DNA of 64,000 nucleotides from Myxosarcina sp. GI1 (lineage in GTDB: Bacteria > Cyanobacteriota > Cyanobacteriia > Cyanobacteriales > Xenococcaceae), in the NCBI RefSeq assembly GCF_000756305.1, contig NZ_JRFE01000001.1:1-64000 (forward strand), read 5' to 3'. The position numbers were made by a program, and so were the translations under genes. The notes under the pieces were generated by a model. The model ran no database searches. It was not told the origin of the DNA and saw only the letters and a list, made by a program, of their open reading frames with translations. Shown piece by piece: positions 5,654-19,837 of this stretch. The first letter of the stretch is position 1; every line of letters begins with the position of its first letter.

Positions 5654-7039
5654 TTAAGCAGATGAAGCTTTAACAACAAGCTCAAAGCCAAGTTGGTCAG
5701 CTTTTCGTTGCAGATTCTTGAGTACTCTTTGTTGATATTGTTGTTCGTAGATATCAATTCCTGGGTCGTGGTACTCTCCACCTTTAGTCCAAAGATAATA
5801 AAAAATACGAGCCAATTTATGAGCAGTAGCAGTAATGGCTTTGGGAGTACCCAATCGACTGCGGAGACGACGAAAAAAAGCTCCCAGAGCAGTTTGACTT
5901 CGACGTAAAGCATGAGCAGCCATCCGAAAAGAGTTGGCAGCACGATTAACTACAAGACGAGTTTGTGAGCTTTTGACTTTCCCACCACTAACTCGACTAC
6001 CAGGACACAAACCCAACCAAGAGGTAAAATGCTTAACCGTAGGAAAGCGGCTAGGGTCCAAACCTACTTCGGAAAGAATAGTTTGAACGGTTAATACTCC
6101 TAAACCATCAATGCGGGTAAAATCAACGCCACTAATACGGTAAAGATGAGTAGCCAAATCAAAAGCTGGAGTATTACTCGAATACTTTTTTGTGAGTGGT
6201 GACTTTTTTAATGGTTCAATTGCTTCCAGTTCGATTTGTGAATCCAGATTAGTTAAATAGGCTTCAATTTCTTGGTCGCATTGAGCTATTTGTTGTTGGT
6301 ACATTTCGTACAACTGCAATTCTTGTTGCAAGACAAACAGATGTTCGGCTCGATAGTCTCCTATTAGTGCTGCTGCTATTTCTTCGCTAGTGCGACGAAT
6401 CCGTCCATCTTTGAAAGATGCTAAGGTCTGAGGATTTCTCTCTCCTGCTACCATAGCGCGAATAATTTTCAGTCCTGTTTTGCCAGTGATGTCACTGATA
6501 ACTCGATGTAGTTGAAGATTCATCTGAGTCAAAGCTTGTTGCATTCGTTGAACGTGAGTACCCGCACTGCGAATTAAATTATCTTGATGACGAATATAAC
6601 TTCGCAGGACGCAAATTTCATCTCTGGGGCGAAATGAACCTGCTAATAAACTATAACTGTGTAGTTGTTGTAACCATTGACAATCTAGGACATCACTTTT
6701 TCTTCCTGGCACAGTTTTGACATGATGGCTATTGACCAATAAAACTTCCAAGCCTCTAGTCTCTAAAATTTGAAATACTGGTATCCAGTATACTCCAGTA
6801 GATTCCATCACTACTGTCTCGACTTGACATTGCTTGAGCCAATCGGCTAGGGCATACAAGTTTAGTGTGTAACATTTAAATTCTCGAACAGGTTGTTCGT
6901 CTCTATCTGCTGGTACGCTAACCCAATGGCTGTCTGCGCCAATGTCTATCCCTGCTGCATTCAGATTTATTGGATTTAAAGAATCGAGTGACTTTTTTTT
7001 GCTGGCTTTTGAGCTAGATTTCCTCTTGTATTTTCCCAC
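5654..7039 (-). CDS. IS110-family transposase (DEDD type)
   Basis: Complete 461-aa recombinase of the IS110 family. The N-terminal RuvC-like domain shows the DEDD tetrad: D32 in GIDIGADSHW, E79 in VVMESTG, and D116 and D119 in GRKSDVLDCQW. The C-terminal Transposase_20 domain has GLGVLTVQTILSEVG, a helix-hairpin-helix-like stretch, and the serine-bearing SRVSGGKVKSSQTR near residue 345, the region that carries the catalytic serine in this family. IS110 elements move without terminal inverted repeats, guided by a bridge RNA made from their own non-coding end. The lysine-rich N-terminus is unusual but may only be the family's basic tail. The element seems to have inserted next to or into the right end of the IS982 copy. 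It has no stops or frameshifts and is probably recent. Confidence 0.92.
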   Translation of the reverse strand: MGKYKRKSSSKASKKKSLDSLNPINLNAAGIDIGADSHWVSVPADRDEQPVREFKCYTLNLYALADWLKQCQVETVVMESTGVYWIPVFQILETRGLEVLLVNSHHVKTVPGRKSDVLDCQWLQQLHSYSLLAGSFRPRDEICVLRSYIRHQDNLIRSAGTHVQRMQQALTQMNLQLHRVISDITGKTGLKIIRAMVAGERNPQTLASFKDGRIRRTSEEIAAALIGDYRAEHLFVLQQELQLYEMYQQQIAQCDQEIEAYLTNLDSQIELEAIEPLKKSPLTKKYSSNTPAFDLATHLYRISGVDFTRIDGLGVLTVQTILSEVGLDPSRFPTVKHFTSWLGLCPGSRVSGGKVKSSQTRLVVNRAANSFRMAAHALRRSQTALGAFFRRLRSRLGTPKAITATAHKLARIFYYLWTKGGEYHDPGIDIYEQQYQQRVLKNLQRKADQLGFELVVKASSA

Positions 7040-7330
7040 TATTCTTCTCCTGCTGCTTCACTCTTTCCAATGAAAAAATGTTCTAGCCTAGGTTCAGTTT
7101 TACTTTCAATTCTCTTAGACGGGATAGAAGCTATTACACTTCTTCACCAATGACTTAAACTTCTCCCCAGAACCACGCTCACGTACGGGTCGCATTCACA
7201 CCATTGTTCGGTCGGTTTTAACTGCTAGAACACTTCCGATTTTAGGTTAGACTTTCTCTACTTAGCTGAAATTTTCTGTTTCTTTCAGACTTAACGAATA
7301 CCTATTTCGTTGAACGCTCACGTTGAAGAA
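7040..7330 (-). ncRNA. IS110 non-coding leader, candidate bridge RNA
   Basis: The 290 bp upstream of the IS110 transposase have no credible reading frame. On the transposase strand they hold inverted words such as CGACCCGTACGTGAGCGTGG, and AACCTAGGCTAGAAC. In IS110 elements the left non-coding end is transcribed as a bridge RNA with two loops that pair with target and donor DNA. Position and length fit this; the fold and loops were not computed. Confidence 0.4.
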
Positions 7331-7490
7331 CCAATATTAATCAAACAAATACTGATTGCTATAGCACAAACTCTTATTTGAATTATTAAACTTTTTAAAT
7401 ATTTATTTTACTACTTGCGATCGATAGTATTATTTTCTTAAAAGCAGAAATTGTTTGGTTTATTCTAATAGCTTCCAAGCTTCAGAAACC

Positions 7491-7790
7491 ATGTCTAATT
7501 TTCAAAATAATTATCATTCGTCATGCCTGGAACACAAGCATATTGACGAACAAGCACTAAAAAATCGGTCGATAAATAAAAGTCATCAAAGTTTGACTTA
7601 TATAAACGATAGTAACTTTATTGCTAGCAACATTTCTAAACAGAAAGAAACTAAGACAGTTAACAAGTTTGTTTGGGTTTTTGTCTTGCTAATGAGCTTA
7701 ATTGTTTATAGTTTGGGTTTGACTTCACTAAGTAAAAATATCCACACTATTACTCAACACATCTTAACAGAATGGAATTTACCTTACTAA
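7491..7790 (+). CDS. Small membrane protein, unknown function
   Basis: A 99-aa product if started at the ATG MSNFQNNYH; an in-frame TTG at 7455 would add 12 residues. The first 60 residues are polar and Asn/Ser/Lys-rich. They are followed by one strong transmembrane helix (VWVFVLLMSLIVYSLGLTSL) and a short tail ending TEWNLPY. I do not recognise a family. It lies just after the IS110 insertion and 35 bp before another small single-helix protein, so the two may be co-transcribed. Its AT-rich upstream region (7330-7450) may hold the promoter. Confidence 0.55.
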   Translation: MSNFQNNYHSSCLEHKHIDEQALKNRSINKSHQSLTYINDSNFIASNISKQKETKTVNKFVWVFVLLMSLIVYSLGLTSLSKNIHTITQHILTEWNLPY

Positions 7791-7825
7791 AATTTTGAAC
7801 AGTCGATATTTATAGGAGGAATGTA

Positions 7826-8086
7826 ATGAATTTATCCGATCGCGATGCCTCAAACAATTTTTCTAAAATTATGTTGCTTATGGAAGAAGAATCTTCCCAG
7901 AATCAAAAAAACAAGTCTTTACGTACTCCCACTCGCGAACGGGAAGCCATATTAGCTTTAGGAGTTATGGCTATGTTGATAGTCTTAAACTTTTTTCTAT
8001 TGCATCGTTCTGTAAGAATCGAGCAAATTCAAACGGAGATCGAACCAGAGGAAGAATTATCTTTAATAGATAACACTTCCAATTAA
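7826..8086 (+). CDS. Small single-span membrane protein
   Basis: An 86-aa protein with a strong ribosome binding site, AGGAGG, ending a few bases before the ATG. It has an acidic and polar N-terminus, a TPTREREAILALG segment, one predicted transmembrane helix (ILALGVMAMLIVLNFFLL) and an acidic tail (EIEPEEELSLID). No family was recognised. It sits directly downstream of another small membrane protein and is followed convergently by ppk1, about 110 bp away. Confidence 0.65.
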   Translation: MNLSDRDASNNFSKIMLLMEEESSQNQKNKSLRTPTREREAILALGVMAMLIVLNFFLLHRSVRIEQIQTEIEPEEELSLIDNTSN

Positions 8087-8197
8087 TAAACGGTTTATTT
8101 TCATGAATCTGCAATTCGCTTGCAGATAGTACGAGCTACTGTTGACAATCTAGAGTAGTGAAATGCTTGGCTACCTAAATTTTTTACTATAAACTAG

Positions 8198-10330
8198 CTA
8201 ATCTAGTTCTGCCAACTGCGCCGCCATTTCCATCAGTAATTCGTGAGTGCTGTGTGCTTCCTCTCCGTCTGCTGGTTTTCTTTGAATATAAGTTCCGTCC
8301 GATCGCAACTCCCATGCTTGACGATTATCCGATAGCATAATCCCCAAAATTTCTTGCAAATCTTTAAAAATTTCGAGAGATTCAATGGGAGTTACTGCTT
8401 CTACTCTGCGGCTCAAATTGCGCGTCATCCAATCGGCACTGCCAATATACATTTCTTCCGAACCGTCGTTTTGAAAGTAATAAATCCGCGAATGTTCTAA
8501 AAATCGACCTATTACACTAACAACATTGATATTATCGCTGATGCCTTTTAGTTGTGGTCGCAAACAGCAGATTCCCCTGACAATCAGATCTATTTTTACT
8601 CCAGCCTGAGACGCTTCGTAAAGAGTTTCAATTATCTGGGTGTCAACTAAAGCATTCATTTTGGCAACAATTCTGCCCGACTTACCATTATGGCAATGCT
8701 CGATTTCACGACGAATCATGTCAATCATGCGATCGCGCAAACTAACTGGTGCGACCAACAGTTTGCGATAGGATTTTTGTTGGGAATAGCCTGTTAAAAA
8801 GTTAAATAAATCGGTTAAATCTGCTCCCAAGTCGCGATCGCAGGTTAGAAGACCCAAATCCGTATAAATTTTGGCTGTTTTAGGATTGTAGTTACCAGTG
8901 CCTATGTGCATATAGCGGTTAATTTTGTCTTCTTCTTGACGAACTACCAAAGTAATTTTGGTATGAGTTTTTAGTCCTGGCAGACCATAGACTACATGAA
9001 CCCCAGAATTTTCTAATTTTCTCGCCCAGATAATATTATTTTCTTCATCAAAACGAGCTTTAAGCTCTACTAAAGCCACTACCTGTTTGCCATTTTCAGC
9101 TGCCGAAATTAAAGCTTTGATAATTGGTGAATCTCCAGAAGTACGATAGAGAGTCATTTTGATTGCCAAAACATCGGGATCTTGAGCCGCCTGGGTAATA
9201 AAACGCAGTACCGTACCACTAAAAGAATGATAGGGATGATGAACTAATAAATCTTGCTTGCGAATTAAATCGAACAAACTAGCGTTTTCGTCTTCAAGCC
9301 AGTTAATTCTAGGTGGCAAAGCTGAAGACCAGGGTTTATCTTTTAATTCTGGTAGGGGTAGACTCATAAATGACATAAGATCTCCCAGACCGATTAAGCC
9401 ATCTATGTCGTAAACATCGTCTTCTTGCAAAATCAACTCGCGCATAATTGTCGCTCTAATATTTTCGGGGATAAAAGCTTGAATTTCTAGCCGAACCGAA
9501 GATCCCCCAATTCGACGCTTCTGTAATTCTTGTTCGATTGCCAACAACAAATCATCTGCCTCATCTTCTTCTAAAGCCAAATCGGTGTTGCGCGTGACCC
9601 GAAATACCGATGATTCGAGAATATTCATTCCTGGAAATAAATATTTCAAATTGTGAGTGATAATTTGTTCCAAAGGAACTCCAGACCAAACTCCCACTTT
9701 TCCTCGATATCGCTGACGCAATTCCTTTGGTAAAGCAACGAAGCGAGGTAGTGATTTGGGAACTTTAAGTCGTGCGAACAATTCCCGATCTGTAGAGGGA
9801 TCTTTAAGTACTATGGCTAAGTTGAGGCTGAGATTGGAAATATAAGGAAAAGGATGGGAAAGATCTACTGCCAAAGGAGTTAGTACGGGAAAAATATGTT
9901 CTTCAAAAAAACTATTCAGGTAAGCCTTTTGTTCTTGGTTGAGATCGACATAATCAATTAGATTAATGCCGTATTTAGTTAATTCTTTTTTTAGTACCTT
10001 TTCAAAATGCTGATGCTGTTCCTCAATCATCGGTCGCAGCAGTTCGGCGATCGCTTGTAGCTGTTCTTCAGCAGAACGACCATCGGCAGATAATTTAGTA
10101 ACTCCTGCTTCAACCTGTTGTTTTAGACCTGCTACCCTAACCATAAAAAATTCATCTAAATTAGAGCTAACAATCGACATAAACTTGAGGCGTTCTAAAA
10201 GTGGTGTTCTGTGGTCTGTTGCTTCTGCCAATACACGTCGATTGAATTCCAGCCAGCTTAATTCTCGATTGAAATAGTATTTGAAATTTCTGAGGTCGAT
10301 TTTTTTATCGCTCTTTTTGGTAGTAGTCAT
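8198..10330 (-). CDS. ppk1: Polyphosphate kinase 1
   Basis: Makes inorganic polyphosphate from the terminal phosphate of ATP, reversibly. The 710-aa length is typical. The N-terminal domain opens with FNRELSWLEFNRRVLAEA, and residues near 45-60 (LKFMSIVSSNLDEFFMVRV) are a PPK1 hallmark. The catalytic core contains the phospho-accepting histidine in GLKTHTKITLV, the second histidine in LEHSRIYYFQND, and YMHIGTGNYNPKTA. The C-terminal ARNLSRRVE-type segment (WMTRNLSRRVEAVTPI) is conserved. The gene is alone on its strand, with recR divergent about 170 bp away. No frameshift or missing residue was seen. Confidence 0.97.
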   Translation of the reverse strand: MTTTKKSDKKIDLRNFKYYFNRELSWLEFNRRVLAEATDHRTPLLERLKFMSIVSSNLDEFFMVRVAGLKQQVEAGVTKLSADGRSAEEQLQAIAELLRPMIEEQHQHFEKVLKKELTKYGINLIDYVDLNQEQKAYLNSFFEEHIFPVLTPLAVDLSHPFPYISNLSLNLAIVLKDPSTDRELFARLKVPKSLPRFVALPKELRQRYRGKVGVWSGVPLEQIITHNLKYLFPGMNILESSVFRVTRNTDLALEEDEADDLLLAIEQELQKRRIGGSSVRLEIQAFIPENIRATIMRELILQEDDVYDIDGLIGLGDLMSFMSLPLPELKDKPWSSALPPRINWLEDENASLFDLIRKQDLLVHHPYHSFSGTVLRFITQAAQDPDVLAIKMTLYRTSGDSPIIKALISAAENGKQVVALVELKARFDEENNIIWARKLENSGVHVVYGLPGLKTHTKITLVVRQEEDKINRYMHIGTGNYNPKTAKIYTDLGLLTCDRDLGADLTDLFNFLTGYSQQKSYRKLLVAPVSLRDRMIDMIRREIEHCHNGKSGRIVAKMNALVDTQIIETLYEASQAGVKIDLIVRGICCLRPQLKGISDNINVVSVIGRFLEHSRIYYFQNDGSEEMYIGSADWMTRNLSRRVEAVTPIESLEIFKDLQEILGIMLSDNRQAWELRSDGTYIQRKPADGEEAHSTHELLMEMAAQLAELD

Positions 10331-10496
10331 AATAGTTGCTTAACAGTCTCGCCCGTCTTAATTTTAAAACTTGGAGTCCCAAAATTTATCTATAATATTT
10401 TATGATTCACGAGAAAAAATTCCCCAGCGAAGTGTCGATCGCTCTTGGAGAAATGCCAATTTAACAGGCAGTTAGAACTTAGTTTAGGAGAGAGTC

Positions 10497-11090
10497 ATAT
10501 ATACACCCCCTTTGGCTCGTTTGATCGAGCAATTACAGCTGTTACCAGGAGTTGGTCCCAAAACTGCTCAAAGATTGGCTCTGCATTTAATTAAACGTCC
10601 AGACAAAGAAGTTAAAGCTTTAGCACAAGCTTTAATTGAAGCCAAACAGCAAGTAGGCTTGTGTAAAGTCTGTTTTCATCTTTCGGCAGAACCAGTTTGC
10701 TCTATTTGTAGCAATCCCAATCGCGATCGCACTACGGTTTGCGTTGTTGCCGACTCTCGCGACACTATTGCTTTAGAAAAAACCAGAGAATATCGCGGTT
10801 TGTATCATGTTTTAGGAGGGGTAATTTCTCCTATGGACGGTATTGGACCCGAACAACTCAATATTGAAGCTCTCGTAAGGAGAATTACCAACAAAGATAT
10901 TAAAGAAGTTATTTTAGCCATTAGCCCTAGCGTAGAAGGTGAAACGACTACCCTTTATCTCAATGGCTTGATTAAGCCTTTTACCAAAGTAACCAGAATT
11001 GCTTTTGGCTTGCCAATGGGTGGAGATCTCGAATATGCTGACGAGGTTACGTTAGCCAGGGCATTAGAAGGCAGAAGAGAGTTAGATTAA
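10497..11090 (+). CDS. recR: Recombination mediator RecR, probable AUA start
   Basis: RecR helps load RecA in gap repair with RecF and RecO. It shows the helix-hairpin-helix [17 protein letters not shown], a four-cysteine zinc finger ([16 protein letters not shown]), and a Toprim domain ([29 protein letters not shown]). The conserved N-terminus of the family is M(V)[12 protein letters not shown]; here the in-frame codons are ATA TAT ACA CCC CCT TTG GCT CGT. ATA at 10497 sits six bases after a good AGGAG, while the first conventional start, TTG at 10512, is 21 bases away and would drop five conserved residues. A TAG at 10485 blocks any upstream start. I therefore place the start at ATA (197 aa). 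Confidence 0.93.
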
Positions 11091-11091
11091 T

Positions 11092-11871
11092 TTACTGCTT
11101 GAATTGTTTGCCGACAGCATTTACCAACAAATCTCTGGGAATGAATCTCGGTATATTGACGATTATCTGATTGCCGATGCCGCCAGTAACGATTGTAGAC
11201 TGTCCTTTTTCTAAGGCTGCGAGAGTTTCTCTGACTACCGCTTCGGGAGAGTCCATATTATCATCGTTCATGCCTGCCATCGAGTCGGGAAAATCGGCGC
11301 GATCGTAAAATTGAGATTCTGTAGGACCGGGGCAGACTGCTAAAATTCTCACGCCGCTATCTTTGTTTTCTGCCCAAATTGCTTCGGTAAAGTTGAGGAT
11401 AAAGGCTTTAGTAGCTGCATAGATCGACATATAGGGTATGGGTTGAAAGGCAGCAATAGAAGAAACATTAACGATCGCACCATCGCCACGTTGTTTCATT
11501 ACGGGTAAAAATAAACCCGTTAGTTCGACGACAGTACTAACGTTTAGCTGAATCATCGCCAGTTGCTTCTCTAAAGGGCGATCGCAAAATGCACCATAGT
11601 CGCCAAAACCTGCGTTGTTGATTAATAGATCGATGTTCAATCCGCTAGCAGTTACTTTATCAAATAGTGTCTTACCTGCTGAGGGTTCGCTAAGATCTAA
11701 AGCAATAACTTCAGTTGCGATCGCATATTTATCTTTTAATTCAGTAGCTAGCTGCTGTAGCTTATTTTGGGTTCTGGCAACCAGGACTAAATCCATTTTT
11801 TTGCTGGCCAATTCTCTGGCGAAGGCTTTTCCTATACCAAAAGAAGCACCTGTAACTAAAGCGGTTTTCAT
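11092..11871 (-). CDS. Short-chain dehydrogenase/reductase (SDR)
   Basis: A 259-aa classical SDR. The NAD(P)-binding motif TGASFGIG is at residues 7-14, NNAG near residue 87, the catalytic Ser in VNVSSIAA and the YAATK (Tyr-xxx-Lys) dyad about residues 150-154, followed by CPGPTESQFYD. VARTQNK after beta-strand 2 suggests NADP preference (inference). The C-terminal IPRFIPRDLLVNAVGKQF could be a membrane-associating helix. The stop is immediately adjacent to that of recR (convergent). The substrate cannot be read from sequence; homologues are often annotated as acyl- or keto-reductases. Confidence 0.88.
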   Translation of the reverse strand: MKTALVTGASFGIGKAFARELASKKMDLVLVARTQNKLQQLATELKDKYAIATEVIALDLSEPSAGKTLFDKVTASGLNIDLLINNAGFGDYGAFCDRPLEKQLAMIQLNVSTVVELTGLFLPVMKQRGDGAIVNVSSIAAFQPIPYMSIYAATKAFILNFTEAIWAENKDSGVRILAVCPGPTESQFYDRADFPDSMAGMNDDNMDSPEAVVRETLAALEKGQSTIVTGGIGNQIIVNIPRFIPRDLLVNAVGKQFKQ

Positions 11872-12280
11872 CGATCTTCTTCAGACTCCTAATTTTGTTA
11901 AGAATTGTAACGCAGTTAGATTGACAATTAGTAGTCTTAAAGATGTAACTATTTATCAATGAGCAATGAAAGTATTTGTATCTGCGTTAGGATACTTAAT
12001 TTTTACCTGCATTCGCGAAGCACGAATCACCGTTGCTAATTATTTTTTGTATTCTTTGTTCGACAAGAAGCGATTGCCAGAAATTGATAGTGTTAGTGAA
12101 TTAAGGAACGAGATTTATTGCCCGCAATCACTACTTTGGCAATCACTTCGAGTACCCATTGTTTGACTTGCTTCAGATTGGTGCAGAAAAACTTGCAGAG
12201 AAAAATTCCTGCTAAAAATACAGTAGCGATCGCCGGGTTTATGTGTTAGAAAACGGAAGTTTGTAGATGATGGCATACAA
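11872..12280. other. Intergenic region ahead of the acyl-transfer cassette
   Basis: About 400 bp with no convincing gene. A 66-codon open frame on the plus strand (11966-12166) has no recognisable family and no good ribosome site. The region should contain divergent promoters for the SDR gene (minus) and the fatty acyl-AMP ligase (plus); no clear -35/-10 pair was picked out. Confidence 0.5.
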
Positions 12281-14008
12281 ATGGAAGAGAGTCGGGTAAT
12301 CGATCGGAGCAACACTTTTGTTGACTTACTGCGCCAGAGAGGAACCAACAATTATCACAAAACAGCTTTTATCTACCTGAAAGATGGCGAAACTGAAACC
12401 GATCGCCTGACCTATGGCAAACTAGATTTACATGCTAGAGCGATCGCTACTTATTTACAGTCTATTTGTAGTCAAGGCGATCGCGCTTTATTAATTTATC
12501 CTTCAGGTCTGGATTTTATCAGTGCTTTTTTCGGTTGTCTCTATGGAGGCATAGTTGCCGTACCTGCTTATCCTCCCAAACCCAATCGTCCTTGGTCGCG
12601 AGTAAGATCGATTGTTGAGGATGCCGCAGCTAAGATAGTTTTAACTACAAGGACTATTTTAGAGCAGCAAGGAAAAAAGTTACGAGATTTCCCCGATCTA
12701 GCTGCTTTGACTTGGATAGCAACAGATGAAATCGAATCAAACTTGGCTACAGAATGGCAAAAACCAAATTTGAACAGCAATAGTTTGGCATTTTTGCAAT
12801 ATACCTCTGGTTCTACAGGCAATCCTAAAGGAGTCATGGTTAGTCATGGTAATTTGCTTCACAATCAACAAATGATTCGAGCAGCTTTCGGACATACAGA
12901 AAAGACAGTATTTGTCGGTTGGTTGCCTTTATTTCACGATATGGGATTGATTGGCAATGTATTACAACCTGTTTATTTGGGAATTCACTGTATTCTCATA
13001 TCGCCGCTTAATTTTTTGTATCGTCCCTTCGCTTGGTTACAAGCGATTTCTCATTACCGAGCAACTACCAGTGGTGCGCCTAATTTTGCTTATGATTTGT
13101 GCGTAAAAAGAACTACTCCCGAACAAAGAGCTAGTTTAGATTTGAGTAGTTGGGCGGTAGCTTTTAATGGTGCCGAACCCGTTCGTCAAGAAACGCTAGA
13201 AAATTTTACTAAGGCTTTTGCTTCTTGTGGTTTTACCCAAAAAGCATTTTATCCTTGCTATGGATTAGCAGAAGCAACTTTATTAGTTACTGGAGGCGAT
13301 CGCGCTATTTATCCTAGTATTTGTAAGGTAAATCCAACTGCATTAGCTAGAGATCGAATCTTAGTAGAAAAGGAAAATAATCAATACTCAAAATCTCTGA
13401 TTAGTTGCGGTCGTACTTGGCTAGGAACAGAACTACTAATTGTCAATCCAGAATCTCTGAAACTTTGTGCTGATGGACGAGTAGGAGAAATTTGGGTTCG
13501 AGGTAAAAGTGTAGCTGTAGGTTACTGGAACAAGCCAGAAGCAACTCAGCAAGTCTTTCAAGCATCTATATCGGAAAAAAGCGAAAATCGGTTTCTCCGC
13601 ACTGGAGATGTAGGATTTGTTAAAGACGGAGAGCTATTTGTTACTGGTCGTTATAAAGACGTAATTATTATCAAGGGTCGTAACTATTACCCAGAAGATA
13701 TCGAACTAACAGTACAACATAGTCATCCTGGCTTGCGTCTCAATGGTGGTGCGGCTTTTACTATAGATAACAATATAGAACAACGCTTGACAGTCGTTCA
13801 AGAAATCGAGCGTAGCTACATCAAAAAATTAAATAGGGATAGTCTGGTCGGAGATATTCGCCAAGCAGTAATGGCAAATCATGAATTACAGGCTCACGAA
13901 ATTATATTAGTAAAACCTGGAACAGTTCCCAAAACCTCAAGCGGTAAAATTTGCCGTTATGCCTGTCGAGAAAAATTTATAGATGGTCAATTAAACACTC
14001 TAAATTGA
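12281..14008 (+). CDS. Fatty acyl-AMP ligase (FAAL)
   Basis: Activates a fatty acid as acyl-AMP and passes it to the phosphopantetheine of a carrier protein instead of to CoA. The 575-aa length is typical for a stand-alone FAAL. Motifs include LQYTSGSTGNPKGVMVSHGNL (A3, P-loop), GWLPLFHDMGLIG (A4, FAAL-type), SGAPNFAYDLC, FNGAEPVR, CYGLAEATLLVTGG (A5), and LRTGDVGFVKDGELFVTGR then YKDVIIIKGRNYYPEDIE (A7/A8). It ends with KTSSGKICRYACREKF, including the catalytic lysine. HDMG, GAPNFAYDLC and NYYPEDIE separate FAAL from acyl-CoA ligases. An acyl carrier protein gene follows 145 bp downstream, then MBOAT and SGNH genes, pointing to acyl transfer onto a surface polymer rather than polyketide synthesis. 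Confidence 0.92.
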   Translation: MEESRVIDRSNTFVDLLRQRGTNNYHKTAFIYLKDGETETDRLTYGKLDLHARAIATYLQSICSQGDRALLIYPSGLDFISAFFGCLYGGIVAVPAYPPKPNRPWSRVRSIVEDAAAKIVLTTRTILEQQGKKLRDFPDLAALTWIATDEIESNLATEWQKPNLNSNSLAFLQYTSGSTGNPKGVMVSHGNLLHNQQMIRAAFGHTEKTVFVGWLPLFHDMGLIGNVLQPVYLGIHCILISPLNFLYRPFAWLQAISHYRATTSGAPNFAYDLCVKRTTPEQRASLDLSSWAVAFNGAEPVRQETLENFTKAFASCGFTQKAFYPCYGLAEATLLVTGGDRAIYPSICKVNPTALARDRILVEKENNQYSKSLISCGRTWLGTELLIVNPESLKLCADGRVGEIWVRGKSVAVGYWNKPEATQQVFQASISEKSENRFLRTGDVGFVKDGELFVTGRYKDVIIIKGRNYYPEDIELTVQHSHPGLRLNGGAAFTIDNNIEQRLTVVQEIERSYIKKLNRDSLVGDIRQAVMANHELQAHEIILVKPGTVPKTSSGKICRYACREKFIDGQLNTLN

Positions 14009-14152
14009 TTTATTCTTTTTGTAACGTCAAAAAAAATAAATAATTAACTAAAAATCGAGTATTGAGTAATGTAAAGTTTATGTTAAGCAAAGATAATTTT
14101 AAAAATTAGATGGGTAAATTTGTTTAAGTGCAAACAAAATACTTAGGTAATT

Positions 14153-14392
14153 ATGTCACTAACAGAAATACAGAGTTGGCTAACTAGTTATCTAGCAGAT
14201 TTCCTCAATACAAAATCCGAGGAAATAGATATTTACATTCCTTTCGATCGCTATGGACTTGACTCTTCAGCTACTGTATCGATGATTGCTGAATTAGAAA
14301 ATAGTTTTCAATGCAACTTAGATCCAGCTATTGTTTACTATTATCCTACTATTGAGTCTTTAACACAGTATTTGTCAAAAACTTTGATTTAG
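14153..14392 (+). CDS. Acyl carrier protein
   Basis: A 79-aa four-helix carrier protein. The phosphopantetheine attachment motif is YGLDSSATVSMI, with the modified serine at residue 38. The remainder (LENSFQCNLDPAIVYYYPTIESLTQYL) matches ACP helices III and IV. It is unlike the highly acidic housekeeping ACP of fatty-acid synthesis and closer to stand-alone carriers paired with FAAL or DltA-like enzymes. Its place between the FAAL and MBOAT genes makes it the likely shuttle for the activated acyl group. A phosphopantetheinyl transferase must be supplied from elsewhere. Confidence 0.9.
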   Translation: MSLTEIQSWLTSYLADFLNTKSEEIDIYIPFDRYGLDSSATVSMIAELENSFQCNLDPAIVYYYPTIESLTQYLSKTLI

Positions 14393-14451
14393 TAAAAAGT
14401 CAAAGACAATCATACTTATTGATTATTCAGAAAATATTACTGTGTTCAATT

Positions 14452-16062
14452 ATGCTATTTAACTCTCATGAGTTTATTTTGCTTTTTTTACCAATTTCGT
14501 TACTAGGTTTTTTTTTGATTAGTAGCACTGGTCATTACCAAATTGTAACTATTTGGCTAGTTGCAGTCTCTATGTTTTTTTATGCTTGGTGGAATCCTGT
14601 TTATTTAAAACTACTAATTTTTTCTATATTATTTAATTACTATTTGGGAATTATTTTAAGTCAAAGTCAGATAAATAACTTCAAAAGCAAGTTAATTTTA
14701 TCTGGAGGCATCAGTTTTAATTTAGCTTTACTAGGATATTTTAAATATGCTATTTTTTTAATTACAGTAGTTAACAGTATAATTAATACTAACTTTACAT
14801 TGCAGCAAATTATTTTGCCTTTAGCTATTTCTTTTTTTACTTTTCAACAAATAGCTTATTTAATAGATGCTTATCGAGGTAAAACAAAAGAATATAGCTT
14901 TTTAAACTATTGTTTATTTGTCAGCTTCTTTCCTCAATTAATTGCTGGTCCTATTGTACATCATCAAGAAATTATTCCTCAATTTGAAGATCGTTCTATT
15001 TATAAATTTGAACCAGAAAATTTAGCGATAGGACTAGCTATGTTTTCTATAGGACTATTCAAAAAGGTAATAATCGCTGATGGAGTTGCTATTTATGTAA
15101 ATCAAGTATTCGATCTAGTAGCTTACAATACATCTATTACTTTTACGGAAGCTTGGGTTGGTGCTTTTGCTTTCTACCTGCAAATTTACTTTGACTTTTC
15201 TGCTTACTCTGATATGGCGTTAGGAACAGCCAGAACGTTTGGGATTAAGTTACCTCTAAATTTTAATTCTCCTTATCAAGCTACTAATATGAGCGAAGCA
15301 ATTAGTCGCTGGCACATAACTCTCAATCGTTTTTTGCGAGATTATCTTTCTATTCCTATTTCTCGTTTACTACAAAAACTTTTTAAATCCAAGAATAATC
15401 AAGGACAACAAATATTACTTTACATCAATATTATTATTACCATGCTATTGTCTGGCTTATGGCATGGTGCGGGATGGACTTTTATTTTGTGGGGAGGATA
15501 TCTCGGAGTTTGTATAGTTATTTATTATTTGTGGCGAGATTTATGTAAATTGCTAGGACAAAATTCCAGAAAAATTCCTTGGTGGCATCATGGATTTGGT
15601 TGGTTTATTACTATGTTAGCTTCAGTAGTTTCTTTAGTATTTTTTAGAGCAGAGAGTTTAAATAGTGCCAGAATTATATTGCAAAGCATGTTTAGTTTTA
15701 ACAAAATTTCTTTACCAACTGTTTTTTCTAACGAGTTAGGCTTTTTATCTGATTTTGGTATTACTTTTAATGGTTTAATGCCTCATATCCAAACTAGAAG
15801 TATAGATATTATTAGTTGGATTGGTTTTCTATTACTAATTGTTTGGTTGGCACCTAATACGCAATACTTATTAAAAGATTATCATCCTGCTTTAGACAGT
15901 TATGTATTTCGTATTTCTTTGAACTGGAGAAATAAAGTATGGCACAAGTTAAAACTCAAATGGCAACTCAATCAAAAATGGGCAATAGTAACAGCAATAA
16001 TGATGTTAATTTGTATTTTAAGGATGACTCAAGAACAAGAATTTATTTATTTTCAGTTTTGA
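14452..16062 (+). CDS. MBOAT-family acyltransferase (AlgI/DltB-like)
   Basis: Polytopic membrane O-acyltransferase of about 536 aa with roughly ten hydrophobic helices. MBOAT signatures are SRWHITLNRFLRDYLSIP and the catalytic-histidine motif LSGLWHGAGWTFILWGGYLG; QIYFDFSAYSDMALGTARTFGIKLPLNF is typical of AlgI/DltB/PatA. The family moves an acyl group across or onto the outer face of the membrane. I place the start at the ATG giving MLFNSHEFILLFLP, the classic N-terminus; an upstream ATG at 14419 would add 11 residues. The gene is noticeably more AT-rich than its neighbours. Directly after it comes an SGNH protein, the usual MBOAT partner. Confidence 0.92.
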   Translation: MLFNSHEFILLFLPISLLGFFLISSTGHYQIVTIWLVAVSMFFYAWWNPVYLKLLIFSILFNYYLGIILSQSQINNFKSKLILSGGISFNLALLGYFKYAIFLITVVNSIINTNFTLQQIILPLAISFFTFQQIAYLIDAYRGKTKEYSFLNYCLFVSFFPQLIAGPIVHHQEIIPQFEDRSIYKFEPENLAIGLAMFSIGLFKKVIIADGVAIYVNQVFDLVAYNTSITFTEAWVGAFAFYLQIYFDFSAYSDMALGTARTFGIKLPLNFNSPYQATNMSEAISRWHITLNRFLRDYLSIPISRLLQKLFKSKNNQGQQILLYINIIITMLLSGLWHGAGWTFILWGGYLGVCIVIYYLWRDLCKLLGQNSRKIPWWHHGFGWFITMLASVVSLVFFRAESLNSARIILQSMFSFNKISLPTVFSNELGFLSDFGITFNGLMPHIQTRSIDIISWIGFLLLIVWLAPNTQYLLKDYHPALDSYVFRISLNWRNKVWHKLKLKWQLNQKWAIVTAIMMLICILRMTQEQEFIYFQF

Positions 16063-16107
16063 ATTTTTTCGATCTTGCAAAAATTTAGTTAATATTAATT
16101 TCAAAAT

Positions 16108-17307
16108 ATGAATTCTGTTAGGTTTTATCTGAAAGTCTATTTTGGGATACTTATTTCTGGATTATTAACAGTTGCTAGTTTTAATTTAATTGTCGATCCC
16201 TACAATATTTATCGTTTAGTTGAAGTTCCTGGTTTAGATCGAAAAGATCCTTCAATAGTTAAGTCAGCAATGCGACGCATTAAATCTATTGATATTACTG
16301 AAAGAAACTACGACACTCTTATTTTAGGAAGCTCTAGAGTAATACAGGGAATCGATCCTGAAAGCCCTATTTTTAGTGATTTTTCTGCTTATAATGCTGG
16401 ATTACCTCGCGCCTATATTTATGAAATTTATCATATTTTTAAATATGCACAAAAAAATTTAGATCTAAAAGCAGTTGTTTTAGGTTTAGATTTTGAAGTT
16501 TTTTTACTAAATGCCGATCGAGGTATAAAAGATTTTGAGCTATCTAAGTTTACTGGAAACAATATCTATTTAGCTAATTGGAAAAATTTATTTACCTGGC
16601 AAAATATTGAGTTTTCTTGGAAAACAATAAAGTCTCAAAAACATGATTATAGTTTTGTTTATACAGATAAAGGATTTAGAAAAAATAATTATTTCATTGG
16701 TAATTATCATGATAATTTTGAAAAACACACTCAACATGTATTTGCTTTAGTTGGTGGTGAAAAAGAAAACCTTTTGCCACAAAAAAGCAATATTAAATAT
16801 AATTTAAAACTTATAGAAAAAATTGTCAAAGATTGCCAAAAGAATAATATCAAGCTGTATTTATTTATTTCTCCTACCCATGCTCATCAACTAGAAGTAT
16901 ATCGAATACTAAATCTTTTTTCTTTATATGAAAACTGGAAAAAACAATTAACAACTATGACAAACAAATTATCAAAAAATAATAGCAAGAATAATTATAT
17001 GCTATGGGGTTTTAGCGGATATAATCGCATTAATACTGAAAAAATACAAGATAGAAATATGCACTGGTACTGGGATTCTTCTCACTACAAAAAAAAAGTT
17101 GGCGAAATGATTTTAGCTCGGTTACTCGGTCAGGATGCAAGTCAGGATGTTTCTGAAGATTTTGGTAAAATAATTAATATTCATAATGTTGAATCGCATA
17201 CACGTAATATTCGCCAAGAACAAAAACAGTATCAACAAGGTTTTCCTGGTGAAGTAGAAAAAGTCGAACAAATAGCTAGAGAAATGAAAATAAGATTAGA
17301 GCGTTAG
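16108..17307 (+). CDS. Membrane-anchored SGNH/DltD-like protein
   Basis: A 399-aa protein with one N-terminal transmembrane helix (FGILISGLLTVASFNLIVD) and an extracytoplasmic domain. Two features fit an SGNH hydrolase fold: YDTLILGSSR, with the block I serine near residue 75, and a C-terminal YWDSSHYKKKVGEMI, with the Asp-x-x-His dyad. AYNAGLPRAYIYEIY resembles block II. Such proteins (DltD, AlgJ/AlgX type) partner MBOAT enzymes and place acyl groups on the polymer. The C-terminal tail after residue 345 is charged and probably disordered. The gene is AT- and Asn/Lys-rich like the MBOAT gene, 45 bp upstream. The family match is by motif only; the fold was not computed. Confidence 0.75.
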   Translation: MNSVRFYLKVYFGILISGLLTVASFNLIVDPYNIYRLVEVPGLDRKDPSIVKSAMRRIKSIDITERNYDTLILGSSRVIQGIDPESPIFSDFSAYNAGLPRAYIYEIYHIFKYAQKNLDLKAVVLGLDFEVFLLNADRGIKDFELSKFTGNNIYLANWKNLFTWQNIEFSWKTIKSQKHDYSFVYTDKGFRKNNYFIGNYHDNFEKHTQHVFALVGGEKENLLPQKSNIKYNLKLIEKIVKDCQKNNIKLYLFISPTHAHQLEVYRILNLFSLYENWKKQLTTMTNKLSKNNSKNNYMLWGFSGYNRINTEKIQDRNMHWYWDSSHYKKKVGEMILARLLGQDASQDVSEDFGKIINIHNVESHTRNIRQEQKQYQQGFPGEVEKVEQIAREMKIRLER

Positions 17308-17346
17308 CTAGAAAATAGGTGTTTAATTTATATGATAACGAAATTT

Positions 17347-17679
17347 TTATGTTTGGCTGTTTCCAGCCAGTTTTTCATTTATTCGCGCGATCGCTTCCGA
17401 CCAATTAGGTATGTGTTCTGTATGCCAAGTATGAGTTTGATTGAAGCCCAATCTATCGGAAACTTGTAAAGCTTTAAAATGTGCTTGAGAATTGCGGAAA
17501 GCTTTCATATCTTCCATACTTTCCCAAACTGTCAGAGTTCTAAAATCCCTGACTCGAATTTTAATTGCAATTAAACCATTAGAATTTTGGGCTTGATATA
17601 TAGACTTTAAAGATAAAATTGCAAACCTTAAAAAAGCAGGTATTTCTTTGAGAGTGTATTTAGTAGTTGAGGCAATCAT
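17347..17679 (-). CDS. Dimeric alpha/beta-barrel protein (monooxygenase-like)
   Basis: A 110-aa protein with YTLKEIPAFLRFAILSL, VRDFRTLTVWESMEDMKAFRNSQAHFKAL and HTWHTEHIPNWSEAI. The TVWESMEDMKAFRNSQAH type of stretch is common in small ferredoxin-like barrels of the antibiotic-biosynthesis-monooxygenase or DUF3291 kind. Catalytic function cannot be assigned. It lies between the acyl cassette (convergent) and the glycosyltransferase operon (same strand, about 40 bp away) and may be unrelated to both. Confidence 0.6.
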   Translation of the reverse strand: MIASTTKYTLKEIPAFLRFAILSLKSIYQAQNSNGLIAIKIRVRDFRTLTVWESMEDMKAFRNSQAHFKALQVSDRLGFNQTHTWHTEHIPNWSEAIARINEKLAGNSQT

Positions 17680-17721
17680 TTGTAGAATTTTAATAAACGA
17701 ATTAAAACAAATATTGAAATA

Positions 17722-18555
17722 TTACGTAACTTTAGCTCTAGGATCGAACTGCTTCAACCAGTTGTAAACTAAAGTTCTCAGAGGAGGAGGCAATAGAACC
17801 ACGACTAACTGTTTGGTAATGGCTAAATAAGCAAAAGGAGCAGCCTTTACCTGCCAACAACCGCGCCAACCGATACGAACGTGAGTAAGAGCTACGCGCC
17901 AGTTATTGCGGGTGAAAGTGTTATCGGAAAAGCGATAGTAAATCAGCGGTTGGGGTAGATTGGCAAATCTGAGTCCCGATCTAACGCAGCGAAACCACAG
18001 TTCGTAATCTTGACGTTTAGATAGTTTTTGACGATAGGAGCCTACTCGTAAGATTGCCTCGCGTCGCAGCATTACCGTCCCGTGAATAAAGGGATTAGTC
18101 CAGACCAAACGGCATATATCCTGGTGATTGGTAGGAACCTTACGCTGACCTAAAATTCTGCCGCGATCGCTCATATCTAGAGCGTAGCCCCCTAAAATAT
18201 CGACTTCAGGTTGTTCTTTTACATACGCCAGTTGCCACTCCAAACGCTGTGGTACTGCCACATCGTCGGCATCCATTCGCGCCACCCAAGGGGTTGTGGC
18301 TGCTGCTATTCCACGAGCTAAATTGTATCCCAAACCTCGATTGCGCTGATTGGTAACAACTTCGATGCGAGAATCTTTTTGGGCAAAATCTCTTAATACT
18401 TTAGCCGTACCGTCAGTAGAAGCATCATCGACAATAATAAATTTAAAGTTGGTCAAGGTCTGCTGCAAAATGCTGTCTATAGCGGTTGGCAGGTGAGGCA
18501 TACCGTTATAAACGCTCATCAAGACTGTAACTAAAGGTTCTGAAGAATTAGTCAT
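17722..18555 (-). CDS. Glycosyltransferase family 2
   Basis: A 277-aa GT-A glycosyltransferase, the last gene of a four-gene operon. The N-terminus VTVLMSVYNGMPHLPTAIDS is followed by IIVDDASTDGTAKVL and the nucleotide-sugar/metal motif ARMDADDVAVPQRLEWQ (DxD); acceptor-side KRQDYELWFRCVRSG carries the probable catalytic Asp/Glu. No transmembrane helices are obvious, though a short hydrophobic stretch (FAYLAITKQLVVVLLPPPL) near the C-terminus may touch the membrane. It overlaps the upstream gene by 8 bp, implying translational coupling. Donor and acceptor sugars cannot be predicted. Confidence 0.92.
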   Translation of the reverse strand: MTNSSEPLVTVLMSVYNGMPHLPTAIDSILQQTLTNFKFIIVDDASTDGTAKVLRDFAQKDSRIEVVTNQRNRGLGYNLARGIAAATTPWVARMDADDVAVPQRLEWQLAYVKEQPEVDILGGYALDMSDRGRILGQRKVPTNHQDICRLVWTNPFIHGTVMLRREAILRVGSYRQKLSKRQDYELWFRCVRSGLRFANLPQPLIYYRFSDNTFTRNNWRVALTHVRIGWRGCWQVKAAPFAYLAITKQLVVVLLPPPLRTLVYNWLKQFDPRAKVT

Positions 18556-19837
18556 TAACTATTGCCGCAATATCGATAAAGTAACTGTAACGTTTACCTT
18601 CATAAGTCGCATCAATCGAAATTATATTTCCGTCGGAACTCCAGCGAGGATGAAGATCGCAGCGTTGCCCCGCACTGTATTTTAACGGTGCAAAAAAACG
18701 CCCTAGTTCGAGAGTTTTTTGGGTTTGGCAATCGCATAACAGTAGATGCTGCTGACGAGAACGGTCTGGATAGGTATCGGTAACGATCCAGCGTCGGTTG
18801 GGAGAAAAAGAAGGGTGTCCGTCGCCATAGATGTCTAAAACTTCTTTACCAGTTATTTGCCATTTACCATTAGTGACATCAATTAAATAGTAGCGATCGC
18901 CTGCCGCTTTGGTTCTCGCCCAAGCCAGTAGATATGCTTCGTCATACCAACTGTAGTGAGAAATCATCCCCTCATCGAGTAAGAGTTGCAGATTGCTACC
19001 GTCACTATCGGAAACATAAAGTCGCGATAATTTACCCCGCTCGCTCAACCAACGGTGCATAAACACGAATTTACTGCCTTGAGGAGAATACATAATGTGA
19101 TTTACTTTATGTTCGGCGGCAGTCATTTCAGGACGAGATTGATATGCAATTAAATCTTGCAAACTAATAATTAATTTACCTTTCCCAGTTTCTAAATCGA
19201 CGTGCCAAATTCCATCTTCTGTTAAAGGCAAATCGTCACTAAAGTTACTAGCATCGACCTCATAGCCATATTCGGGACGCAGACGAGCCAAGCGTTTGTA
19301 GTTAAGAGTCAGAGCTTCTTTCCCGTTGGGATGCAGCGTTTGAATGGGAAAAGGAATCATGTCTTCAGTTTTTGTCGCTAAGGAAATAATTCTGGCTGCT
19401 AGTTTTCCCTCTACCAAATCGTTAAAAATTATTTGTTTATCGTCGCAATTAGATAGCCATTGAACCATAGTTCCCTGTTGCGAACTCCAAGTCTTAGAAG
19501 TTGCCACTACTTCAACCGTTTGTTTGTAGCGGTCGTAGATAATAATTTCTACTTGGCGATCGCTTTGCAGTCGATGACAGATAAACTTGGACATATCTGA
19601 CGACCAGGGAGATTTGTCATAATAGCCAAAAAATAGTTCTCCTTTAGTCTCCTCGACATTACACCACTGCCAGGGAGTCGAGATTTTTACTCGTGGGTGG
19701 AGTGCTAAAGAAAAATTGCGATCGCCATAATACCAATAGTTCAAGCGTTGATAGGTACTTTTAGCAACTTGTTTTATCTGGGGAAAGCGATCGAGAGTCT
19801 TAGCTATGGTTCGCTCTAGGGGATTAAATGATTTCAT
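18548..19837 (-). CDS. TolB-like beta-propeller protein of polysaccharide operon
   Basis: A 429-aa protein without glycosyltransferase motifs. It has repeated propeller-like blade ends: GYYDKSPWSSDMSKFICH, IMYSPQGSKFVFMHRW, GHPSFSPNRRWIVTDTYPD and HPRWSSDGNIISIDATYEG. These SPxGxxxxF/W patterns are typical of WD40/TolB-type blades. There is no signal peptide. It overlaps the downstream GT2 gene and is 1 bp from the upstream GT2 gene, so it is probably made in step with them. It may bind sugar chains or act as a scaffold, or be an inactive lyase-type propeller; function unknown. Confidence 0.65.
   Translation of the reverse strand: MKSFNPLERTIAKTLDRFPQIKQVAKSTYQRLNYWYYGDRNFSLALHPRVKISTPWQWCNVEETKGELFFGYYDKSPWSSDMSKFICHRLQSDRQVEIIIYDRYKQTVEVVATSKTWSSQQGTMVQWLSNCDDKQIIFNDLVEGKLAARIISLATKTEDMIPFPIQTLHPNGKEALTLNYKRLARLRPEYGYEVDASNFSDDLPLTEDGIWHVDLETGKGKLIISLQDLIAYQSRPEMTAAEHKVNHIMYSPQGSKFVFMHRWLSERGKLSRLYVSDSDGSNLQLLLDEGMISHYSWYDEAYLLAWARTKAAGDRYYLIDVTNGKWQITGKEVLDIYGDGHPSFSPNRRWIVTDTYPDRSRQQHLLLCDCQTQKTLELGRFFAPLKYSAGQRCDLHPRWSSDGNIISIDATYEGKRYSYFIDIAAIVND

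Follow-up and report, generated by a model that had tools for sequence, protein, structure and literature searches.

A putative Dlt-like acyltransferase cassette with a fatty acyl-AMP ligase in Myxosarcina sp. GI1

AlgIJ and PatAB are O-acetyltransferases in which an MBOAT protein is paired with an SGNH protein, and the Dlt system (DltABCDX) carries out the D-alanylation of teichoic acids. In the portions of PMC12148441 drawn on here, the MBOAT-SGNH systems discussed are described as moving acetyl or D-alanyl groups; PatA takes its acetyl group from acetyl-CoA, the pathways other than Dlt being said to operate without a carrier protein, and the invariant tyrosine of its FXYXXF motif accepts the acetyl group and passes it to PatB. 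In Dlt, according to the same source, this shuttle motif is found on the microprotein DltX. Fatty acyl-AMP ligases (FAALs) are described as loading acyl-AMP on an acyl carrier protein (ACP) and rejecting coenzyme A (CoA) (PMC8460268, in part), and the sections of a review used here give fatty acids of C4 to C18 as their substrates and name JamA and CylA as examples that provide starters for cyanobacterial polyketide synthases (PKS) or nonribosomal peptide synthetases (NRPS) (PMC11837247). Here we analyzed four adjacent genes within a 64,000-nucleotide stretch of the Myxosarcina sp. GI1 genome (contig NZ_JRFE01000001.1, positions 1 to 64,000; the whole stretch is called the window). We consider it likely, with a probability of about 0.7, that they constitute a carrier-fed MBOAT-SGNH transferase of the Dlt-like kind that handles a fatty (or related carboxylic) acid.

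Genes and motifs of the cassette

The cassette spans positions 12281-17307 and encodes a FAAL, a stand-alone ACP, an MBOAT and an SGNH-like protein, all on the + strand. A check of the open reading frames (ORFs) found the four adjacent genes at the coordinates and on the strand given in the first-pass annotation of the window, with intergenic gaps of 144, 59 and 45 bases.

12281..14008, + strand: gene 1, fatty acyl-AMP ligase (FAAL), 575 aa (Pfam, PDB relatives, tree position)
14153..14392, + strand: gene 2, stand-alone acyl carrier protein, 79 aa (PF00550, 48.1 bits, cut-off 20.8)
14264-14266, + strand: predicted phosphopantetheine Ser38 in GLDSS (ACP sequence motif)
14452..16062, + strand: gene 3, MBOAT O-acyltransferase, 536 aa from ATG 14452 (547 aa from TTG 14419) (PF03062, TIGR04091, AlphaFold model)
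15343..15405, + strand: DltB-helix-HC-like segment YLSIPISRLLQKLFKSKNNQG, residues 298-318, replacing the PLGG[NS]RxG loop (alignments)
15463..15465, + strand: predicted catalytic His338 in GLWHGAGW, invariant in all 7 sequences of alignment A2
16042..16059, + strand: C-terminal acyl-shuttle motif FIYFQF (FXYXXF) with predicted acyl acceptor Tyr533 (sequence end, alignment A2)
16108..17307, + strand: gene 4, SGNH-like protein, 399 aa, with Ser76 (GSSR), Asn96 and Asp323-Ser-Ser-His326 (family conservation)
17353..17370, + strand: terminator-like hairpin and T run, 3' of gene 4 (consensus scan only)

The G + C content at third codon positions (GC3) of the SGNH (0.18), MBOAT (0.21) and FAAL (0.27) genes is the lowest among the 39 window ORFs of at least 200 aa (median 0.35); the ACP gene has a value of 0.26, and the eight genes flanking the cassette range from 0.32 to 0.42. 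As the low GC3 is common to all four genes, it was taken as a sign that they form one unit, without the neighboring glycosyltransferases and sulfotransferase. A consensus-only scan of the + strand detected no hairpin in the three intergenic gaps, and some within the FAAL gene.

Gene 1 matched PF00501 (234 bits) and PF23024 (44.5 bits). Its closest solved relatives, aligned over the full length, are FAALs (7r7g, 9e-197; 3kxw, 5e-151), compared with 2.7e-19 for DltA (3e7w), and the earlier proposal that a FAAL rather than DltA is the activating enzyme was thus borne out. FAAL models of NCBIfam also rank high, the best 25 of 102 models all lying under their curated cut-offs. The stand-alone ACP, previously recognized by the serine in GLDSSA, was confirmed by its PF00550 score. 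Its best solved relative is Asl1650 (4.5e-10), it scored 16.1 bits with the DltC model against a cut-off of 68 bits, and it has a valine at the position of DltC Val39.

The identification of gene 3 as an MBOAT with a WHGAGW motif also holds (PF03062, 89.5 bits against a cut-off of 27); its relatives, however, align from the ATG at 14452 instead of the TTG at 14419 previously chosen as the start. With the DltB model TIGR04091 it scored 157.7 bits, below the cut-off of 375. F531, Y533 and F536 of its tail are invariant in the seven sequences of alignment A2, and a fused C-terminal FXYXXF of this kind is a mark of PatAB-type proteins. Among the ORFs of at least 25 aa at 11001-18500, this ending was found only on the MBOAT and on no separate DltX-like protein, with two short ORFs matching a looser form. 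The first-pass annotation contained neither this tail nor the replaced cytoplasmic loop described below. An AlphaFold model of the MBOAT (7 sequences) reached a predicted local distance difference test (pLDDT) value of 63.4 and a predicted template modeling (pTM) score of 0.64; its best structural match is DltB (6bug; Z 19.7, 376 residues, root-mean-square deviation 3.9), with other MBOATs at 9-17. Judging from this model, the window MBOAT may act like DltB without being a DltB.

A Pfam scan assigned no family to gene 4. It nevertheless contains the Ser, Asn and Asp/His sequence blocks that we take to be those of SGNH-type transferases: G74, S76, R77, N96, S325 and H326 are kept in 34-36 of 37 aligned relatives (S76, N96 and H326 in 36 each), and Asp323, present in the window, is kept in less than 90% of the family and is a glutamate in L272 and L273. 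The earlier description as an anchored SGNH/DltD-like protein therefore stands for the GSSR and DSSH motifs, the anchor being an N-terminal hydrophobic stretch recognized by eye, but Pfam did not place the protein in the DltD family, since PF04914 was reached by one of 11 family members (E 0.1). DUF1574 was reached by five of the 11 (best 3.1e-7). The predicted structure of gene 4 (pLDDT 39.7) was unusable.

The cytoplasmic loop and nearby carrier genes

Of 51 aligned MBOATs outside the MBOATb branch (see below), 49 have PLGG[NS]RxG or a near variant between their RDY and GLWHG motifs. Both other MBOATs encoded in the genome are among these 49, and the two loop-less proteins, those of loci L040 and L132, each have a carrier gene nearby. 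Where its relatives have this cytoplasmic loop, the window MBOAT has the longer segment YLSIPISRLLQKLFKSKNNQG, which HMMER aligned to DltB residues 299-318. In the part of PMC11035591 used here, Met302, Val305, Ile306 and Met309 of DltB helix HC contact Met36/Val39 of DltC, and DltC Glu40 pairs with DltB Lys312 and Arg317. HMMER places Ile, Ile, Leu, Lys and Lys of the window protein at DltB positions 302, 306, 309, 312 and 317, with a gap at 305; because HMMER and MAFFT differ at 305, 306 and 317, this residue match in the aligned sequences is suggestive only.

In a survey of MBOAT loci of at least 5 kb, with the window excluded, a stand-alone ACP gene lay within 4 kb in none of 32 MBOATs that keep the loop (4 kb were visible on both sides in 21 of these 32 loci), and a carrier gene was nearby in 17 of 25 MBOATs without it. 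A second set, collected by similarity to L040 and repeating several rows of the first, included 29 loop-bearing MBOATs; no carrier lay within about 1.5 kb of any of them. In addition, 12 of 136 plasmid records were picked by hand from a spread listing: eight MBOATs kept the loop (carrier in 0/8) and four lacked it (carrier in 2/4), namely a DltB with DltC and MBOATs of Sulfitobacter, Tistrella and Sinorhizobium. Near the Sulfitobacter protein is a ligase whose C-terminus is a weak carrier-domain match (16.7 bits, cut-off 20.8). A PatA-like plasmid protein that ends in FIYANF, reported as the C-terminal end of NgPatA (PMC12148441, in part), keeps the loop, whereas the plasmid DltB does not. Loops were classed by eye for three PMGG cases in the second set, for RLGG and SLGG in the plasmid set and for L346.

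The loop-less lineages comprise the window, L040, L132, MBOATb, DltB and three MBOATs of the plasmid set, and a carrier is in view for all of them except Tistrella, Sinorhizobium and part of MBOATb. As L132, L165 and L175 were found through their ACP, and L227-L235 through ACP and MBOAT matches in the same genomes, the ACP beside them cannot count as independent evidence; selection by ACP played no part for L241-L246, L238, L287-L291, L040 and the plasmid records. Among the MBOATb loci not selected by ACP, an ACP adjoins the MBOAT in six of 12, and the six others belong to one genus whose genomes have a dehydrogenase-ACP arrangement elsewhere. The rows share ancestry and some were found through the ACP; thus, the loop and carrier counts do not represent independent events.

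The L040 MBOAT was flagged as loop-less before its ACP was recognized, the carrier not having been picked up by the first BLAST pass. Since the ACP profile contained the L040 carrier itself, its recovery by that profile in the first set was circular, and its identity rests on inspection and a best score of 32.2 bits, below the curated cut-offs. The locus (6314-10606) is an FkbH-ACP-MBOAT-SGNH cluster in which FkbH (302 bits) lies before the carrier; this arrangement suggests that a machine of the same type may handle a glyceryl-type acyl group or a related one. The Sulfitobacter pontiacus plasmid (L345, NZ_CP049347.1, 1108-4929) bears a Dlt-like set in an alphaproteobacterium, composed of the ligase with the weak C-terminal carrier domain, an SGNH-like gene (by eye) and a short MBOAT without the GG loop; the last 53 residues of one ORF (from an internal ATG) end in GISSDQIIYIDLQEAQ, which appears DltX-like by eye.

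We hold it to be an even bet that MBOAT-SGNH envelope transferases were repeatedly converted from acyl-CoA to acyl-carrier supply, each time with a different loading module and with replacement of the PLGG[NS]R loop at the site where DltB docks DltC; on that same evenly balanced reading, the modules would be a natural-product FAAL-ACP pair, FAAL-dehydrogenase-ACP, FkbH-ACP and a ligase-ACP didomain. If this is true, fatty, unsaturated, glyceryl or other acyl groups are possible on bacterial surfaces, and the loop would help to forecast the donor of a bacterial MBOAT from its sequence.

Related operons and their origin

The first-pass annotation had suggested a search for the same gene order in other genomes, which did not recover the exact order in any other neighborhood examined and did reveal a related five-gene order, FAAL-acyl dehydrogenase-ACP-MBOATb-SGNHb, complete in 13 cyanobacterial genomes of five families. 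The four Dlt-like roles assigned earlier are upheld, and the relay reading is strengthened by this recurrent operon, the shuttle motif and the DltB-like segment. The loci are:

Complete FAAL-dehydrogenase-ACP-MBOATb-SGNHb operons: L165, L175, L227-L230, L232 and L241-L246

An example is L241 (2136-11951), with 12 counterparts. L232 has an extra ORF 5' of the MBOAT, and the operons of L233 and L234 are broken by contig ends. Among the few loci tested with Pfam, Pyr_redox_2 is found downstream in L175, L229 and L241 and a DCC1-like domain in L229 (in L241 below the cut-off), and these may point to redox chemistry; in L165 an FkbM methyltransferase takes their place. Downstream of the operon, L227-L230 have an MBOATa-SGNHa pair, homologous to genes 3 and 4 of the window, in which the GG loop is kept, and such a pair is likewise present in L231, where a contig end cuts the operon at MBOATb. 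Where MBOATb or SGNHb is separated from the 5' part of the operon, all 12 of 12 genomes have the dehydrogenase at another place (partial in the data of G299 and G295), with an ACP visible next to it in 10.

A probe with SGNH homologs matched in 66 of 291 genomes of the order, many visible for only 1.5 kb per side, short of the far end of the MBOAT; the fetched neighborhoods contain MBOAT-SGNH pairs, mostly without FAAL or ACP. With an ACP probe, among the matches listed, an MBOAT lay beside the FAAL or ACP in three of 80 fetched neighborhoods. A fourth apparent case, L147, was dropped, as it looked like a false match on inspection.

In the FAAL tree, the window protein pairs with one FAAL of L132 (support 85/95), and a tree uniting it with the FAALs of the dehydrogenase operons was rejected (approximately unbiased test, p-AU 0.0003). 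The window MBOAT falls in the MBOATa group (98/95), and MBOATb forms a separate branch (100/100). The separate FAAL clades and the MBOAT topology make it probable that MBOAT-SGNH pairs acquired FAAL-ACP modules on two or more occasions; as a joint clade of the window MBOAT and MBOATb was not rejected (p-AU 0.107), the FAAL tree and the topology are the basis for an independent origin.

The L132 locus (7122-14653) has the order FAAL-ACP-P450-FAAL-MBOAT, with a gene matching the SGNH profile, and its MBOAT ends in YFYGQ, a shuttle motif without the final Phe. In L122, L129, L140 and L146, a repeated operon contains several genes of about 250-400 aa, a stand-alone ACP and a protein of 163-185 aa, with a FAAL upstream and no PKS-sized ORF listed directly beside it.

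Mechanism, alternatives and comparison with known systems

From the genes and motifs observed, the replaced loop and the recurrent occurrence of carrier genes with loop-less MBOATs, five steps can be proposed by homology. The FAAL would adenylate the acid and charge the phosphopantetheine of the stand-alone ACP with the acyl group. The acyl-ACP would dock at the cytoplasmic DltB-like segment of the MBOAT, whose tunnel would pass the acyl group on to Tyr533 in the FIYFQF at the C-terminus of the same protein; from there the acyl-Tyr tail would hand it to Ser76 of the SGNH protein. By analogy only, which also applies to the identity of the chain, the SGNH protein may then transfer the acyl group in ester linkage to an extracytoplasmic acceptor, for which a surface glycan is the most likely candidate.

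The genome encodes further MBOAT-SGNH pairs within Wzy/glycosyltransferase clusters, of which one includes a sulfotransferase and one a Wzx-type gene, and L273, one of the two closest MBOAT-SGNH pairs, adjoins a Kdo-8-phosphate synthase (KdsA) and a glycosyltransferase; by analogy with these contexts, a surface glycan is the likeliest acceptor. A sulfated, acylated polysaccharide of the emulcyan kind was considered as a candidate. The same-genome pairs are L027 and L028 (contigs C12 and C26), one adjoining the sulfotransferase and one a GH9 protein. The glycosyltransferases near the cassette, which the first-pass annotation had combined with the sulfotransferase as a source of the acceptor, are on the opposite strand with ordinary GC3, the sulfotransferase gene also having an ordinary GC3, and are thus poor evidence on this point; they are probably not part of the unit, and both were set aside as members by strand and GC3. 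Between family-2 glycosyltransferases, at 18548-19837 (- strand), lies a TolB-like beta-propeller protein (NCBIfam, 39 bits, below the cut-off).

Several observations weigh against a carrier-fed transferase. The window FAAL clusters with stand-alone FAALs that are mostly next to PKS/NRPS-sized ORFs (neighbors so termed by ORF size and carrier-domain matches, not by Pfam); of the two affiliations that the first-pass annotation had named as damaging to its proposal, membership in DltA is contradicted, and one with polyketide loading enzymes is partly supported by this grouping. Compared with the stand-alone pairs, identities are about 50-60% for full-length FAALs and 44-61% for ACPs, an ORF of at least 900 aa is present in 55 of 80 ACP loci, and by sequence the FAAL and ACP resemble natural-product (PKS/NRPS-neighbor) pairs. 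DltC Glu40, the partner of DltB Lys312 and Arg317, is replaced by Ser in the window ACP, and MAFFT, which agrees with HMMER at 302, 309 and 312 (Ile, Leu, Lys), aligns Ser with 305 and Gln with 317 and leaves a gap at 306. The MBOAT model is middling, its C-terminus having a pLDDT below 50 so that the tail is not placeable, and no relevant match to gene 4 was found in a PDB profile search, so that no solved structure or Pfam family covers it. The exact FAAL-ACP-MBOAT-SGNH order was seen in the window only, among all neighborhoods examined, and the lack of conserved linkage that the first-pass annotation had likewise named as damaging is thereby partly borne out. In the first survey set, eight of 25 loop-less MBOATs had no ACP nearby (one at a contig end), and loop-bearing L037 has a carrier domain inside a large ORF 1.2 kb away. 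The MBOATs of L343 (3761-5281, Tistrella) and L346 (3836-5566, Sinorhizobium) have neither a loop nor a carrier within about 4 kb and are either exceptions to the rule or users of a distant carrier. Finally, as loop-bearing MBOATa-SGNHa pairs follow the FAAL operon in four genomes and a contig-cut fifth, FAAL adjacency is no proof of carrier use.

Some of these points would fit chance neighbors, that is, a leftover or displaced polyketide or lipopeptide starter pair beside an ordinary O-acetyltransferase using acetyl-CoA: the FAAL grouping is as expected, and most examined MBOATa-SGNHa neighborhoods are without FAAL or ACP. However, the MBOAT lacks the loop that 49 of 51 relatives and the PatA-like control keep, the cassette genes have their unusual GC3 in common, and a separate conserved operon combines the same roles. 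Moreover, none of the 20 window proteins scanned with Pfam (the window has 46 ORFs of at least 120 aa) is a PKS or NRPS, and the longest listed window ORF, a GGDEF-EAL protein, has 834 aa. We therefore regard chance adjacency as quite unlikely. Alternatively, the machine may be fed by the carrier as proposed and act on a small exported molecule or glycolipid, as a natural-product acylation cassette. The resemblance of the FAAL and ACP to natural-product pairs, the P450 and two FAALs of L132 and, by strand and GC3, the lack of polymer genes in the unit would agree with this, but the polysaccharide clusters around the same-genome pairs and the KdsA and glycosyltransferase genes beside L273 make it quite unlikely. 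A cargo other than a fatty acid, such as a short or substituted (hydroxy, branched or other) acid, is compatible with a carrier-fed transferase. Such cargo is suggested for this machine type by the FkbH-ACP-MBOAT cluster and by the acetyl or D-alanyl groups moved by the MBOAT-SGNH systems in the cited part of PMC12148441, but it is doubtful in view of the C4 to C18 fatty acids listed as FAAL substrates (PMC11837247, in part). A carrier-fed, Dlt-like transferase for a fatty or related acid thus remains our preferred explanation.

In the open-access literature searched (most subscription literature lying outside this scope), we found no publication joining a FAAL with an MBOAT, or an MBOAT-SGNH polysaccharide system with an acyl carrier protein, and no description of the FAAL-dehydrogenase-ACP-MBOATb-SGNHb operon; the word 'polysaccharide' does not occur in the main text of the FAAL review PMC11837247. 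If the proposal is true, a FAAL-fed system would attach lipid to a surface molecule, with possible effects on hydrophobicity, flocculation, grazing or phage access in cyanobacteria, and FAALs would have a role beyond polyketide and lipopeptide assembly. The loop-versus-helix difference would also serve as a sequence test for the donor of an MBOAT.

Compared with FAAL-ACP starter pairs of cyanobacterial PKS/NRPS, which its FAAL and ACP sequences resemble, the cassette differs in having an MBOAT and an SGNH gene directly downstream and no PKS/NRPS found nearby. The cassette matches the dehydrogenase operon in its four roles and in their relative order, whereas that operon has an extra dehydrogenase, Pyr_redox_2/DCC1 proteins where tested, and a separate FAAL clade and MBOATb branch. 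Like PatAB/AlgIJ-type O-acetyltransferases, and like its closest MBOAT relatives, which are of the same build, it combines an MBOAT with a fused C-terminal FXYXXF and a separate SGNH protein; unlike PatAB, it has an adjoining carrier gene and an MBOAT without the loop of its relatives and the PatA-like protein. With Dlt it has in common a ligase, a stand-alone carrier, an MBOAT and an SGNH-like protein, an MBOAT fold nearest to DltB, a segment aligning with the DltC-docking helix and the FXYXXF motif. It differs from Dlt in that a FAAL, which did not qualify as DltA, takes the place of that ligase, the shuttle motif is fused to the MBOAT and not on a separate DltX, the carrier and SGNH proteins fall below the cut-offs of the DltC and DltD models, and the host is a cyanobacterium. 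Taken together, the window combines a carrier protein as in Dlt with a fused tail as in PatA, and what is new here, given that the logic of Dlt and PatAB was already known, is that a principle like that of Dlt is joined to a tail like that of PatA and to another loading module.

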